This document shows positions 50,115-54,437 of a stretch of DNA of 54,437 bases, piece by piece. The notes beneath the pieces are model-generated. The model ran no database searches and was not told where the DNA came from. It saw only the letters and a program-made list of their open reading frames with translations. Origin of the DNA: Bacteroidetes bacterium OLB12 (GTDB lineage: Bacteria > Bacteroidota > Bacteroidia > Cytophagales > Cyclobacteriaceae); contig LNFR01000033.1 in assembly GCA_001567185.1 (NCBI GenBank), positions 1 to 54,437 of the forward strand, in the 5' to 3' direction. The position numbers and the translations under genes are program-made. Position 1 is the first letter of the stretch. Each line of letters begins with the position of its first letter.

Positions 50115-51326
50115 GTGGAGAAGAGCATAATACACCTGGATCTGGATGCTTTTTTTGTTGCCGTAGAACGCAGAAAAGAGCCAAAATTAAAGGGATTACC
50201 CTTGATTGTGGGTGGTAGCAACCGCAGAGGCGTGGTAGCAGCTTGCAGTTACGAAGCCCGCACGTTTGGGGTACACTCGGCCATGCCCATGTACCTGGCC
50301 CTGCAACTTTGCCCCGATGCCAAAGTGATTTCGGGCGATATGGAAGCATACAGCCAGTACTCGCATTTGGTTACGGAAATTATTGCCGACAAAGCTCCGG
50401 CATTCGAAAAATCATCTATCGATGAATTTTATATTGATGCCACCGGCATGGATCGTTATGTAGGCACGTATAAGTGGGCCATCGAACTTCAAAACAAAAT
50501 TATTCGCGAAAGCGACCTGCCCATTTCAATGGCGCTTTCGGTAAACAAATTAGTATCGAAAGTTGCTACGGGCGAATACAAGCCACAGGCACAGGTACAA
50601 ATTCCATTACACCAGGTAAACCAGTTTCTCGATCCGCTGGCCATCGATAAAATTCCGATGATCGGAAAACAGACTGCTTCCTTTTTATACGATATGGGTG
50701 TGCGCACGGTAGCTACCTTACGGGAAATGCCCTTGCCATTTTTAGTAAGTGCGTTTGGTAAAAACGGAATGAGTTTGTGGAACAAAGCCCGCGGCCTGGA
50801 CGACTCGCCCGTGGTTTCGTATAGTGAACAAAAATCGATTTCAACCGAATCAACATTCGATCAGGACACGATTGATGTAAAGCGATTAAAATCTATTTTA
50901 ATTGCGATGGTTGAAAAAATAGCGTTTCAACTGCGCGAACAGAAAAAACTTACTTCGTGCATTACGGTAAAAATCCGGTATTCCAATTTCGATACCGAAA
51001 CCAAACAAATACACATTCCCTACACCTCGTCCGATCATGTGATTTTACGCGTGGTGCAAGAGTTGTTTGATAAACTCTACAACCGTAGAATGCTGATCCG
51101 GTTAGTAGGAGTGCGGTTGAGCAACCTCGTGCAGGGCAATCACCAGATTAGTTTGTTTGACGAAACCGAAGAAGATGTAAACCTGTACGAGGCGATGGAT
51201 GTGATCAAACACAAACATGGGGTAGATAAACTGGTGCGTGCCACTACGCTGGGCGTAAGTAAACGCGTGCGTATGGAGATGAACGTGTTTAACGGGAAGA
51301 TCAGAAAGGATTTGATGAAGATGTGA
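50115..51326 (+). CDS. dinB: DNA polymerase IV (Y-family)
   Basis: 403 residues from a GTG start. Catalytic site: IIHLDLDAFFVAVE (Asp9, Asp11) and SSIDEFYID (Asp and Glu). Steric-gate region AACSYEARTFGVHSAMP, helix-hairpin KIPMIGKQTASFLYDMG and the little-finger domain follow. A beta-clamp binding motif QISLF lies near the end. It bypasses damaged DNA with low fidelity. It is followed by a RAYT insertion and a dnaE polymerase, like the SOS translesion sets (dinB/imuB-dnaE2) of other bacteria. Confidence 0.94.
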   Translation: MEKSIIHLDLDAFFVAVERRKEPKLKGLPLIVGGSNRRGVVAACSYEARTFGVHSAMPMYLALQLCPDAKVISGDMEAYSQYSHLVTEIIADKAPAFEKSSIDEFYIDATGMDRYVGTYKWAIELQNKIIRESDLPISMALSVNKLVSKVATGEYKPQAQVQIPLHQVNQFLDPLAIDKIPMIGKQTASFLYDMGVRTVATLREMPLPFLVSAFGKNGMSLWNKARGLDDSPVVSYSEQKSISTESTFDQDTIDVKRLKSILIAMVEKIAFQLREQKKLTSCITVKIRYSNFDTETKQIHIPYTSSDHVILRVVQELFDKLYNRRMLIRLVGVRLSNLVQGNHQISLFDETEEDVNLYEAMDVIKHKHGVDKLVRATTLGVSKRVRMEMNVFNGKIRKDLMKM

Positions 51327-51331
51327 GATGG

Positions 51332-51415
51332 GGTCTGTGAGGACACAGACCTCGAAGAGGGAATAGAATAAAAAAAATTAATGTACTCAAACATCGGTCT
51401 GTGTCCTCACAGACC
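51332..51415. repeat. Inverted pair of REP palindromes upstream of the RAYT
   Basis: GGTCTGTGAGGACACAGACC at 51332-51351 and its reverse complement at 51396-51415 lie 44 bp apart in opposite orientation. Each alone is an 8-bp stem with a four-base loop (AGGA or TCCT). This arrangement is that of a REPIN. Confidence 0.82.
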
Positions 51416-51452
51416 GAAACCCACAACCCGAAAACACAAATCAATAACCACA

Positions 51453-52014
51453 ATGACTCAATCTGAATTAAAATATGGCTCTCGAAAATCAGAAATGATT
51501 TTAAACGAAGTCTATTTCTGGACAGACACTATCAAAAACTGGAACAAATTATTAGAGCACGATTCAAACAAGCACATTATAATTGAATTGCTGGAAAAAT
51601 CTTATCAACCGCGAAAAGATCAGGTTGTATGCATTTGTCATTATGCCTAACCATATTCATGCTATCTGGGAGATGGTAAATATGAATGGAAAAGAAATGC
51701 CGTATGCCAGTTTTAATAAATTCACCAGTCATCAGTTTTTGGAACGCGTACGACTAACTCCACAGATTATCCCCTTTAAAGATTCTCATAATCGCGAGCG
51801 CAAACACCGTTTTTGGCAACGCGATCCTTTAGCAATTCAAATGAATTCAAAGTCGATTGTTGAACAGAAGATCGAATACATTCATCTTAACCCGCTGCAA
51901 GAACATTGGAATCTTGTTTCCAAACCGGAAGATTACAAGTGGTCATCAGCTCGTTTTTACGAAACAGGAGTTGATGAGTTTGGAATTATCACGGACTATC
52001 GGGAACGGTTTTGA
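51453..52014 (+). CDS. REP-associated tyrosine transposase (RAYT), frameshifted
   Basis: Start MTQSELKYGSRKSEMI at 51453. The first frame carries the N-terminal part to about 51595. The next (51583-52014) has the Y1 HUH motif PNHIHAIW, and the typical ending VEQKIEYIHLNPLQEHWNLVSKPEDYKWSSARFYETG with Tyr nucleophile candidates. One extra A in the run at 51595-51599 explains the shift and gives about 186 residues. RAYTs are IS200-like enzymes that move or maintain REP palindromes and do not usually move themselves. Six REP copies flank it. Confidence 0.85.
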
Positions 52015-52042
52015 GTAAACGAAGAGATAAGGTAAGAGAAGA

Positions 52043-52221
52043 GGTCTGTGAGGACACAGACCTCGGAGAGAGAAACAGAAGTTGATGAGTTTGGAATACA
52101 TGAAGAGATAGGGTAAGAAAGCCAAGAGATCTGTGAGGGTGCAGACCTCTTATAAGGATAATCAGATGGGATGGTCTGTGGGGACACAGACCAGCAAGAG
52201 GGGTCTGTGAGGACACAGACC
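52043..52221. repeat. Four REP palindromes downstream of the RAYT
   Basis: Copies at 52043-52062 (perfect, arms extend to 10 bp), 52128-52147 (diverged), 52173-52192 (one loop change) and 52202-52221 (perfect), all in the same orientation as the first upstream copy. They fill the gap between the RAYT stop and dnaE. A duplicated piece of the RAYT 3' end (52072-52098) precedes the second one. Confidence 0.82.
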
Positions 52222-52268: not shown

Positions 52269-54437
52269 ATGTACCTTAATTGCCACACCGGTTTCAGTTT
52301 TAAATATGGCACATTGCCCATTAAAACTCTTTTTAACGAAGCCAAACGCTGCGGCATTCATAAACTTGCACTAACCGAAATAAACAACACCGCTTCGTAT
52401 CTGGAATTGCTGCGCATCTGTTACGAAAATCAACCCCAACACAACGGCCTCACCAAATATGGCAAGGAAGCGTACCCGCTGGCATTAGCCGTGGGTATTG
52501 AGTTTCGTGACAAGGATCAGCAACTGCTCTATATCATCCTTGCCAAAAACAATCCTGGTTTCGAATTGCTCAATCGCTTTCTCTCTTATCACAATCGCGA
52601 AGACAAACCTTTTCCGCAGCGTGCCCCGGTTATGGAGAACACGTTTGTGATTTATCCATATCAGCAAATTGAACCCGAAACATTACACAATCATGAATTC
52701 ATAGGTGTAGGTAGTCATCAGTTGGTAGCCTATGCAGCTGATCCATTACGCGAAGCATTTGCTCATAAATTTGTTGCGCTGCATCCCGTTACATTTTTAC
52801 CACCCGAGAAAATTAAAGACAAAAAAGCAGGTCGAGATAAATTTATCTACCGCGACCACAACACGCATCGACTGCTGCGGTGTATTGCGCACAACACCTT
52901 GTTAAGTAAACTACCCGAACACCTGCAGGCACGTAAAGATGAGTACATGTTGCCCGAACCTGAATTACGAAACCGGTTTGCGCAGTTTCCCGATTTATTG
53001 GAACGATCGCGTTTTCTTTTGGACCAGTGCACAATTGAATGTAAACCAGGTGAAGACAAAAACAAAAAATACCTGCGCAACAACGCAGCAGAAGATATGG
53101 AATACCTGCGCGCTGAAACAGAAAAAGGGTATGCTATGCGTTATGGCACAGATCGCACTATTTGGAGTAAACACATTGAAAAAGAACTGCGCATTATTTC
53201 GCAGAAAGGTTTTATCTCCTATTACCTTATCACCTACGATTTAATTTTATTTGCCCGCACCAACGGCTATGATTTTGTGGGGCGTGGTAGCGGTGCCAAC
53301 AGTACCGTAGCGTATTGCCTGGGTATTACCAATGTTGATCCGATTGAACTTGATTTATACTTCGAACGGTTTTTAAATGAAGAACGCGTAACACCACCCG
53401 ATTTTGATATTGATTTTTCGTGGGATAACCGCGATGCCATTTATCAATACCTGTTCAATAAGCATGGTTACGATCATGTTTGCCTGCTGGGCACACACGT
53501 TACTTATAAAGCCAAGTCCATTTTGCGCGAGTTGGGAAAAGTTTTTGGTTTGCCCAAAGAAGAAATTGATATGCTGGTAGAAAGCCGGAGAGAATCTTTA
53601 CCACGCGATCACATCGCCAATAAGATCATGGCTTTTGCAGAATACATCGAACAAAAAGAATTACCCGCCAACATTTCCATTCATGCCGGTGGTGTGCTTA
53701 TTACCGACAAACCTATTTATGCTTACACGGCTACTGAATATCCACCCAAGAGTTTACCAGTATCGCAATTTGAAATGCATGCAGCCGAAGATTTTGGTAT
53801 TTATAAGTTTGATATTTTGAGCCAACGGGGCTTAGGGCACATTAAAGAAACTGTTAAACACGTAAAACGAAACCAGGGCATTGATGTAGATGTATATCAG
53901 TTTCGGAAATTTAAAACCGATGAAAAAATAAAAGACCTGATGCGCCACAGCAAAGCAATGGGTTGTTTTTATGTAGAATCGCCCGCCATGCGCATGTTGC
54001 TGGGCAAATTGCGCTGCGATGATTACCTCACGCTGGTGGCAGCCAGCTCAATCATTCGGCCGGGAGTTGCCAGCTCGGGTATGATGAAAGCCTACATTGA
54101 GCGGTACCACATGCATCGCAATAATATTAAGTACGAATCCATCCACCCGAAGATGGACGAAATTATGCACGACACCTATGGTGTAATGGTGTACCAGGAA
54201 GATGTAATTAAAGTAGCGCACCATTTTGGTGGCCTCACCTTAACGGAAGCCGATGTATTGCGCAGAGGCATGAGCGGCAAGTATCGTTCGCGCGAAGAGT
54301 TTCAACGCGTGCGCGATAAATTTTTTGAAAACTGCGAAAAGATCGGGTATGAAAAAAAAGTAATCGATCGGGTATGGTTTGAGATTGAAAGCTTTGCCGG
54401 ATACTCGTTTGCCAAAGGACACTCGGCCAGTTATGCA
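52269..54437 (+). CDS. dnaE: DNA polymerase III alpha subunit-like (DnaE2-type), partial
   Basis: 723 residues visible, open at the right edge. C-family polymerase: N-terminal PHP domain (MYLNCHTGFSFKYGTLPIKTLF), palm with PDFDIDF (catalytic Asp pair, about residues 376-382) and KFDILSQRGL (third Asp, about 512), thumb and fingers to SFAGYSFAKGHSASY. The PHP start reads NCH where active domains have HxH, so its metal site is probably dead. With dinB before it, this is likely the error-prone second DnaE and not the main replicase. The REP array lies directly before the ATG. Confidence 0.9.
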   Translation, partial: MYLNCHTGFSFKYGTLPIKTLFNEAKRCGIHKLALTEINNTASYLELLRICYENQPQHNGLTKYGKEAYPLALAVGIEFRDKDQQLLYIILAKNNPGFELLNRFLSYHNREDKPFPQRAPVMENTFVIYPYQQIEPETLHNHEFIGVGSHQLVAYAADPLREAFAHKFVALHPVTFLPPEKIKDKKAGRDKFIYRDHNTHRLLRCIAHNTLLSKLPEHLQARKDEYMLPEPELRNRFAQFPDLLERSRFLLDQCTIECKPGEDKNKKYLRNNAAEDMEYLRAETEKGYAMRYGTDRTIWSKHIEKELRIISQKGFISYYLITYDLILFARTNGYDFVGRGSGANSTVAYCLGITNVDPIELDLYFERFLNEERVTPPDFDIDFSWDNRDAIYQYLFNKHGYDHVCLLGTHVTYKAKSILRELGKVFGLPKEEIDMLVESRRESLPRDHIANKIMAFAEYIEQKELPANISIHAGGVLITDKPIYAYTATEYPPKSLPVSQFEMHAAEDFGIYKFDILSQRGLGHIKETVKHVKRNQGIDVDVYQFRKFKTDEKIKDLMRHSKAMGCFYVESPAMRMLLGKLRCDDYLTLVAASSIIRPGVASSGMMKAYIERYHMHRNNIKYESIHPKMDEIMHDTYGVMVYQEDVIKVAHHFGGLTLTEADVLRRGMSGKYRSREEFQRVRDKFFENCEKIGYEKKVIDRVWFEIESFAGYSFAKGHSASYA

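Follow-up and report, generated by a model that had tools for sequence, protein, structure and literature searches.

A split RAYT gene bounded by inverted palindromic repeats between dinB and dnaE in a Bacteroidota genome, probably a low-copy REPtron

The window, by which we mean the whole stretch of DNA analysed, comprises 54,437 nucleotides of contig LNFR01000033.1 from Bacteroidetes bacterium OLB12 (assembly GCA_001567185.1). A first-pass annotation had placed a RAYT gene between dinB and dnaE, and profile searches agree, as the two neighbours match NF002677 and PF07733 and the sequence between them matches NF047646. The features of the locus are as follows.

50115..51326, plus strand: dinB (DNA polymerase IV), the 5' neighbour (NF002677, E 3.7e-89; Pfam IMS/IMS_C)
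51332..51351, minus strand (strand of the TCCT loop): REP copy 1, exact match, 8 paired bases only, foot TC
51396..51415, plus strand: REP copy 2, exact match, 10-bp stem, foot CA, closest copy 5' of the RAYT and with its TCCT loop on the gene strand
51453..51650, plus strand: N-terminal piece of the RAYT, first frame (tblastn to residues 4-43 of the intact L052, 85% identity)
51583..52014, plus strand: C-terminal piece of the RAYT, second frame, with NHIH, WQRD, YIHLNP and SSA motifs (NF047646, E 1e-15; L052 residues 43-185, 94%)
52043..52062, minus strand: REP copy 3, exact match, closest 3' of the RAYT and opposed to copy 2, 10-bp stem, CC foot
52128..52147, minus strand: REP copy 4, diverged, 3 mismatches
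52173..52192, minus strand: REP copy 5, exact match, loop TCCC, foot TG
52202..52221, minus strand: REP copy 6, exact match, CC foot, 8 paired bases
52269..54437, plus strand: dnaE-family polymerase, the 3' neighbour, truncated by the window end (PF07733, E 2.4e-64; PHP and finger domains)

The 20-nt palindrome has the pattern GGTCTGTG-N4-CACAGACC and is matched exactly at 51332, 51396, 52043, 52173 and 52202. Together with a copy carrying three mismatches these make six copies around the RAYT, where 0.02 are expected (100 shuffles). The earlier description of six matching palindromes is thus right in number, but the copy at 52128-52147, given its mismatches, does not have both arms in common with the others. 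Their arrangement was described correctly: the upstream pair is inverted, with an AGGA loop followed by a TCCT loop, and the four downstream copies share a single orientation. The inner copies, 51396 and 52043, bound the RAYT as inverted REPs. No Rfam family reaches its gathering score in the window; three Rfam miRNA-precursor matches at the inverted pair lie far under their gathering scores and were set aside as hairpin look-alikes. The first-pass annotation proposed that the hairpins could affect dnaE expression; terminator-like matches number two against 1.0 expected, all on the minus strand and antisense to the genes. Directly after the first downstream palindrome, positions 52072-52097 repeat 26 nt of the 3' part of the RAYT (51961-51986) at 96% identity.

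The first-pass annotation missed that the RAYT is split: one frame covers 51453-51650 and another 51583-52014, and the break lies near 51583. The window copy is therefore either broken or mis-assembled. An intact relative, 94% identical, occupies the same dinB-dnaE locus in genome G268 (locus L052). The match of the window RAYT to NCBIfam NF047646 (REP_Tyr_transpos) has an E value of 1e-15 and scores 57.9 bits, the model cut-off being 80. A Pfam search with the window RAYT pieces returned no Y1 domain, the Pfam Y1 match in L052 is sub-threshold (E 0.01) and a phmmer search against 4er8 gave E 0.41. These signals are too weak, so that the Y1 identity had to come from profile and fold searches. 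The profile search reaches E. coli TnpAREP (4er8) with E 6.6e-4. The AlphaFold2 model of a relative, L081 (38 proteins, mean pLDDT 93.7), has that same entry, E. coli RAYT with a REP hairpin, as its best PDB match (E 1.3e-8), followed by the ISDra2 and IS608 transposases. Similarity of the ORF to Y1 transposases, on which the first-pass call depended, is upheld by the profile match and by the fold of this relative.

In a 28-row alignment the relatives are 43-94% identical to L052 and near full length, except for the window row. They have in common MPNH[ILV]H (HIY in one row), an invariant W, mostly within W-Q-R-D, Y-[ILV]-H-x-N and S-S. The HuH, W, Y and SS motifs recur in a wider 97-row set, where NHIH, NHLH or NHVH accounts for 92 of the 95 motifs found, the commonest Y motifs are YIHNNP (26) and YIHLNP (24), SS is present in 91 rows, and the median length among rows of at least 165 aa is 183.5 aa. 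The residue after the conserved W is Q in 116 of 155 proteins in the aligned column. RAYT-like proteins occur at E<=1e-8 in 181 of the 295 genomes sampled from the family, and the best 80 of at least 508 relatives in a named scan are all titled as Bacteroidota taxa. The OLB12 genome contains one strong RAYT match and two weak matches to other Y1 proteins. Its contig C39 (L020 1390-1950 and 2052-2205) encodes another Y1 protein, which is unrelated to the RAYT and whose YxxNQxxHH signature resembles that of subclass 1.2; it is followed by three CRACCCCTNCGGGGTYG hairpins, and the surrounding genes resemble, by eye, type I restriction-modification genes.

Within 350 nt of the gene, hairpins with a stem of at least 8 are present on the upstream side in 63 of 76 RAYTs and on the downstream side in 58 of 79, compared with 24 of 898 control windows; the count includes a few of other sequence, for example at L100, L113, L126 and L136. 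Near RAYTs the hairpin density far exceeds that at distances above 1.5 kb. In a larger set of 182 distinct RAYTs from 205 loci, which contains those of the first count, 155 bear hairpins and 27, some at contig ends, have none passing the filter. The pairing of RAYT and hairpin is widespread in Bacteroidota. The hairpins are oriented with respect to the gene. On the gene strand the closest upstream hairpin has a pyrimidine loop in 113 of 137 cases (24 otherwise) and the closest downstream hairpin a purine loop in 118 of 134 (16 otherwise), a total of 40 exceptions in 271. Among 161 four-base loops, a set selected for GTG, GTC, GAG or GCG right before the loop, 157 begin with T and 127 have C in second place.

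The stem extends beyond its 8-bp core. In 72 dispersed copies (29 from G033, 23 from G108, 17 from G268 and three from the OLB12 genome) the first and second outer pairs are Watson-Crick in 66 and 62, with 30.0 and 20.6 expected, and the third in seven, with 8.0 expected. The 434 hairpins at the sides of RAYTs form outer pairs 1, 2 and 3 in 378, 306 and 34 cases (194.4, 111.2 and 60.9 expected). As two outer pairs form with several pair types and the third stays at chance, the stem is 10 bp long, with covarying outer pairs. The two bases just 5' of the stem are CC in 150 of 202 hairpins, compared with 10 of 202 in the mirror control and 14 two bases further out; in the larger set, which overlaps the 202, the CC foot is found in 324 of 434. 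The most frequent foot triplet is GCC (93 of 202), the canonical GT[AG]G tetranucleotide is absent from the 5' foot, where CC stands instead, and no strong motif was seen 3' of the stem. These counts of foot, stem and loop give the commonest form as 5'-(G)CC-NN-GGTNNGTG-TCNN-CACNNACC-N'N'-3', it being understood that the data on which loop polarity, foot and stem were discovered overlap those on which they were counted. In the inner pair, the feet are directed away from the RAYT. In the window two of six copies have the CC foot and in the OLB12 genome six of 14, and in G268 the two foot positions are C in six and seven of 17 copies. The Bacteroidota repeat is thus a defined, asymmetric element with a 5' CC foot, a 10-bp stem and a TCNN loop and with no GTAG head. 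Half palindromes, consisting of one arm and the loop, occur beside whole ones at L015 3117-3240, at L016 ~3040 and 4880 and downstream of the RAYT in G210 (L055), as though the tip of the hairpin were where repeats break or are copied.

The stems follow the RAYT lineage. Hairpins are present on both sides in 110 of 147 RAYTs, and in 85 of these 110 the 8-mer stem is identical, the mean of 1000 shuffles being 12.0 and the maximum 22. On the RAYT tree the stem type changes 60 times, compared with 104.0 when shuffled (minimum 99, 100 shuffles). Smaller sets agree (same stem in 45 of 54; 26 tree changes vs 45.9). The second foot base changes 22 times vs 31.9 when shuffled, and one clade, with three rows from Pedobacter and two from MAGs, has a TA foot. 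Stems are lineage-specific and match the RAYT; GGTCTGTG and GGTTCGTG are among the stem lineages. The residue after the conserved W corresponds in motif place to W94-Q95 of E. coli TnpAREP (PMC6006769). K or R at this place goes with A as the second foot base in nine of 20 RAYTs, compared with nine of 135 otherwise (Fisher p 4e-5, a value that ignores kinship). A recognition code between this residue and the foot is not supported: nine independent pairs were available, about two ran in the same direction, and the median p was 0.5-0.6 after kinship correction. Mutual information would link stem position -4 with L052 residues R118, R115, E114 and Y181, but this statistic likewise ignores kinship and is given no weight here.

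Copies of the palindrome also lie elsewhere in the OLB12 genome. With up to two mismatches allowed there are 14 matches vs none for the control, five on the window contig (C33), two on C97, five on C110, one on C83 and one on C56; the single match on C56 is probably due to chance. The palindrome is therefore present at three further sites (C97, C110 and C83), exact at two of them, and the possibility that it occurs in the window alone is refuted. The first-pass expectation of many dispersed pairs failed for the OLB12 genome, in which the total is about 13 copies at four sites; each of five relatives counted has 17 to 29 copies. More than 100 copies are usual for REPs, a general REPtron feature (PMC2817692), and this number is reached neither in the OLB12 genome nor in the five relatives. 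The exact pattern occurs in 51 of 295 genomes of the family sample, with none for the control. Among the genomes whose RAYT matches score best (at least 179 bits), 13 of 17 have it, vs 38 of the 278 others. The four of the 17 that lack the pattern are G066, G028 and G253, in which the stem ends in C, and G087, with a 3-nt loop. Palindromes without a close RAYT number 26 in G108, 23 in G098 and 18 in G070; loss of the RAYT would explain such repeat-rich genomes.

The predicted intergenic enrichment was borne out, and the dispersed repeats are extragenic. Copies lie inside an ORF in one of 29 cases in G033, one of 17 in G268, three of 23 in G108 (a count made on 23 of the 26 copies) and none of three for exact copies outside the window in the OLB12 genome, whereas ORFs cover 81-85% of the stretches that hold dispersed copies. 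The copies occur as single palindromes, direct repeats or pairs; of 21 neighbouring pairs within 200 nt, 16 are direct and five inverted. Comparison of close relatives reveals filled and empty sites. One spacer, adjoining what we take to be a methionine-biosynthesis-like gene and then an OsmC-like gene, contains repeats in the OLB12 genome (G000), G312, G268 and G274 and none in G318 or G307 (in G307 the sequence beyond differs). In the OLB12 genome, repeat copies on C110 enclose a block of two genes that is absent in G312, where the spacer reads like a join at the repeat, which fits a deletion (or insertion) through the repeats. No ortholog of the gene neighbouring the block was found in G268 or G318, and those in G274 and G307 were weak. 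The block, at ~164500-166400 (L016 3000-4920), encodes a secreted-looking protein of 150 aa and a protein of 328 aa with, by eye, a LuxR-like end; on the other side of the block, too, there is sequence similar to the 3' end of the next gene.

The residence of the RAYT between dinB and dnaE extends to relatives. Among 58 congeners dinB was found in 36, and 30 loci were read over ~1.5 kb. In 11 of these 30, dinB is followed by RAYT sequence, with dnaE within ~1.5 kb in six of the 11 and beyond the stretch read in the other five; in G322 dnaE lies ~3 kb further on, as taken from the same gene in L082 (L082 and L179 are one gene). Of the 11 congeneric RAYTs at the site, five have a frame of at least 172 aa and six are broken, partial or relics. 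Whole hairpins without a RAYT stand at the site in G312 and G318, and only part-palindrome-like sequence in G274 and G307. The two genes also flank a RAYT in L056/L083 (G033), L055 (G210) and L081, so that by group code (g1, g33, g65) no fewer than three genera have the arrangement. In G258, dinB is followed by a hairpin and part of a RAYT where the contig ends. In a second set of dinB loci, read for ~1.5 kb or to the contig end, no RAYT was found in 19 of 22; in all 14 RAYT-bearing loci of this set and the 30 congeneric loci the RAYT is codirectional with dinB, and the dinB-dnaE spacer is variable among relatives. In L162 (G268) a short AAGATGT-like unit, repeated in tandem, lies between the dinB stop and the first palindrome. 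A small gene, presumably 2'-5' RNA ligase-like, also follows dinB in L168, L175, L176 and G210. In E. coli K-12 (NC_000913 247637-251953, L393) rayT lies upstream of dinB, its end separated from that gene by 2.8 kb and two pseudogenes, a proximity that is possibly a coincidence.

In the tree, the site RAYTs long enough to be placed fall in one 15-row clade with support 91/83, the short or broken copies L167, L177, L178 and L182 having been left off. The clade also holds L053, L057 and L059, with neither dinB nor dnaE in the 1.5 kb read. A single clade of dinB-site RAYTs was rejected when imposed as a constraint (p-AU 0.0004), but this result carries no weight, as its row set lacked the site RAYTs L054, L055, L056, L081 and L082. 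Distances between RAYTs correlate with those between dinB genes (Mantel r 0.65, p 0.005, nine genomes), leaning on one close pair. No target-site duplication was seen by eye between the filled site of G210 and the empty site of G287. The site is most simply read as one of long residence and frequent decay; alternatively, the RAYT may have been inserted repeatedly at one place.

Taken together, the locus is very probably a REPtron of the Bacteroidota TnpAREP/RAYT subclass 2.6, that is, a HuH-Y1 nuclease gene bounded by inverted cognate repeats. The filled and empty repeat sites and the one block difference between close relatives support this interpretation; the low copy number, the repeats without a close RAYT and the weak foot in the count from its own genus speak against it. 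Three alternatives were weighed. We consider it unlikely that the RAYT and the two inner inverted palindromes form an autonomous IS, IS200/IS605-like or a TIRtron, with the palindromes as its ends and the solo copies as remnants. The inner palindromes do have the prevailing polarity on both sides, like element ends, and RAYT presence differs among congeners. However, the OLB12 genome holds one RAYT of the lineage, its two other Y1 matches being weak, the site RAYTs placed in the tree make up one mainly dinB-resident clade, and dispersed copies take the form of lone palindromes, direct repeats or pairs.

A slightly less probable alternative is exaptation, in which the RAYT would be a working part of a dinB-dnaE unit that processes single-stranded hairpins at stalled forks, with the repeats as substrates or regulators. 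Its presence between the two genes in several genera, the shared direction of reading in all 14 loci, the single clade of placeable site RAYTs and the correlated RAYT and dinB distances, with the weight of one close pair, are what this would lead one to expect. Against it, no RAYT follows dinB in 19 of 30 and 19 of 22 loci (~1.5 kb or to the contig end), and the gene looks dispensable, as it is broken or partial in six of 11 congeneric loci. Least probable, and very improbable in our view, is that the palindromes are hairpins of the host, either terminators or elements of mRNA stability, spread or kept independently with the RAYT among them by chance, for although many persist in genomes without a close RAYT and lie in intergenic positions, often between codirectional or convergent genes, their stems follow the RAYT lineage and are mostly identical on both gene sides, they are far denser next to RAYTs than more than 1.5 kb off, and the Rfam and antisense terminator results in the window point the same way.

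The REPtron interpretation suggests a mechanism by analogy with E. coli. E. coli TnpAREP cuts the single-stranded REP, not its complement, at a CT near the hairpin, and requires the 5' GTAG for cleavage; in Marinomonas an altered GTAG shifts the cut as base complementarity predicts, whereas the same change failed for the E. coli and Stenotrophomonas enzymes (PMC8266576). The substrate of the Bacteroidota RAYT would be single-stranded DNA, from the lagging-strand template or repair gaps. The enzyme would bind the repeat strand bearing the 5' CC foot and the TCNN loop, and its catalytic tyrosine would cut beside the hairpin. Rejoining of the hairpin elsewhere would seed repeats. By the GTAG guide rule the CC foot would select a GG cleavage dinucleotide, and a cut at GG is thus predicted from complementarity. 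For the Bacteroidota repeat, cleavage and mobility are inferred from this parallel. The RAYT probably once spread these repeats through the genome. With its RAYT frameshifted and its feet degenerate, the system in the OLB12 genome is probably dying, and the window most likely holds a low-copy, dying REPtron. Leftover repeats may act mainly as inert hairpins or scars, and as recombination points at which blocks, the RAYT included, could be lost.

A broader proposal, which we put forward tentatively and regard as rather doubtful, is that of a separate Bacteroidota REP system, in which the guide in the foot is CC (GCC) rather than GT[AG]G, GG cleavage is predicted and enzyme identity resides in the central stem pairs, and in which one RAYT clade settled in the dinB-dnaE locus of the family, was inherited with it and may work there. 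REP recognition has so far, in the sources available, been worked out for the GTAG-headed repeats of Proteobacteria. A phylum-wide RAYT series, with another conserved foot, a similar loop and varied stem pairs, would allow a direct test of the guide rule and of a protein-hairpin code. The repeat definition offers a simple route to annotating an unnamed repeat of Bacteroidota genomes, and at the dinB-dnaE locus the domestication or decay of a transposase is traceable between close relatives.

Comparison with known systems places the locus among REPtrons. Inverted REPs, coevolution, extragenic dispersal, orthologues at a kept position and the same fold (4er8) are shared with the gammaproteobacterial REPtrons described for E. 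coli rayT and Stenotrophomonas (PMC2817692, PMC8266576). The differences, so far as those accounts extend, are the CC instead of the GT[AG]G head, a perfect 10-bp stem without the E. coli bulge, and copies in tens, not hundreds. With IS200/IS605 the Bacteroidota system has in common the HuH-Y1 fold and single-strand hairpin ends with a 5' guide sequence, but the motif there is Y[IV]ENQ rather than YIHxNP, and no multicopy mobile unit was seen in the OLB12 genome, with its one strong RAYT match. The TIRYT/TIRtron arrangement also has a Y1 transposase between inverted repeats; however, these are described as long terminal inverted repeats, some with GGGGWSAS (PMC3733652), whereas the repeats here are short palindromes with a foot. 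RayT genes of Chryseobacterium are reported near a resistance gene, with no mention of palindromes or REP there in the available text (PMC11194056). The open-licence literature yielded no description of a RAYT in the dinB-dnaE spacer and no later account of the repeat anatomy of subclass 2.6, although the supplementary table of PMC6006769 may hold sequences.

The closest relationship is to subclass 2.6 itself, which equals Bertels 2017 RAYT group 5, 'mostly present in Bacteroidetes', and is characterized by ~179 aa, NH[LIV]H, WQ, YIH[QN]NP, SS and, in the text available, no GT[AG]G; its repeats were reported as 'atypical secondary structures', the hairpins being found by eye (PMC6006769, Quentin et al. 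2018). The RAYT described here appears to fit this subclass, to which it was assigned by motifs, length, taxa and hairpin description. It shares the occurrence in Bacteroidota, the length of ~180 aa, NH[LIV]H, mostly W-Q, YIHxNP and SS; its gene is likewise bordered by atypical hairpins, further copies of which lie at other places in the genome, and GT[AG]G is lacking; the YIHLNP of the window departs from the exact YIH[QN]NP. The suggestion of a distinct Bacteroidota lineage with its own palindrome therefore holds for the repeat, which is of its own type, but the lineage was already known as subclass 2.6 (PMC6006769). As available, that paper gives no consensus; the present analysis defines the repeat by its CC foot, 10-bp stem, TCNN loop and polarity. 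Judged by the literature available, the repeat anatomy and the dinB-dnaE residence appear to be new, the kind of RAYT being already known.
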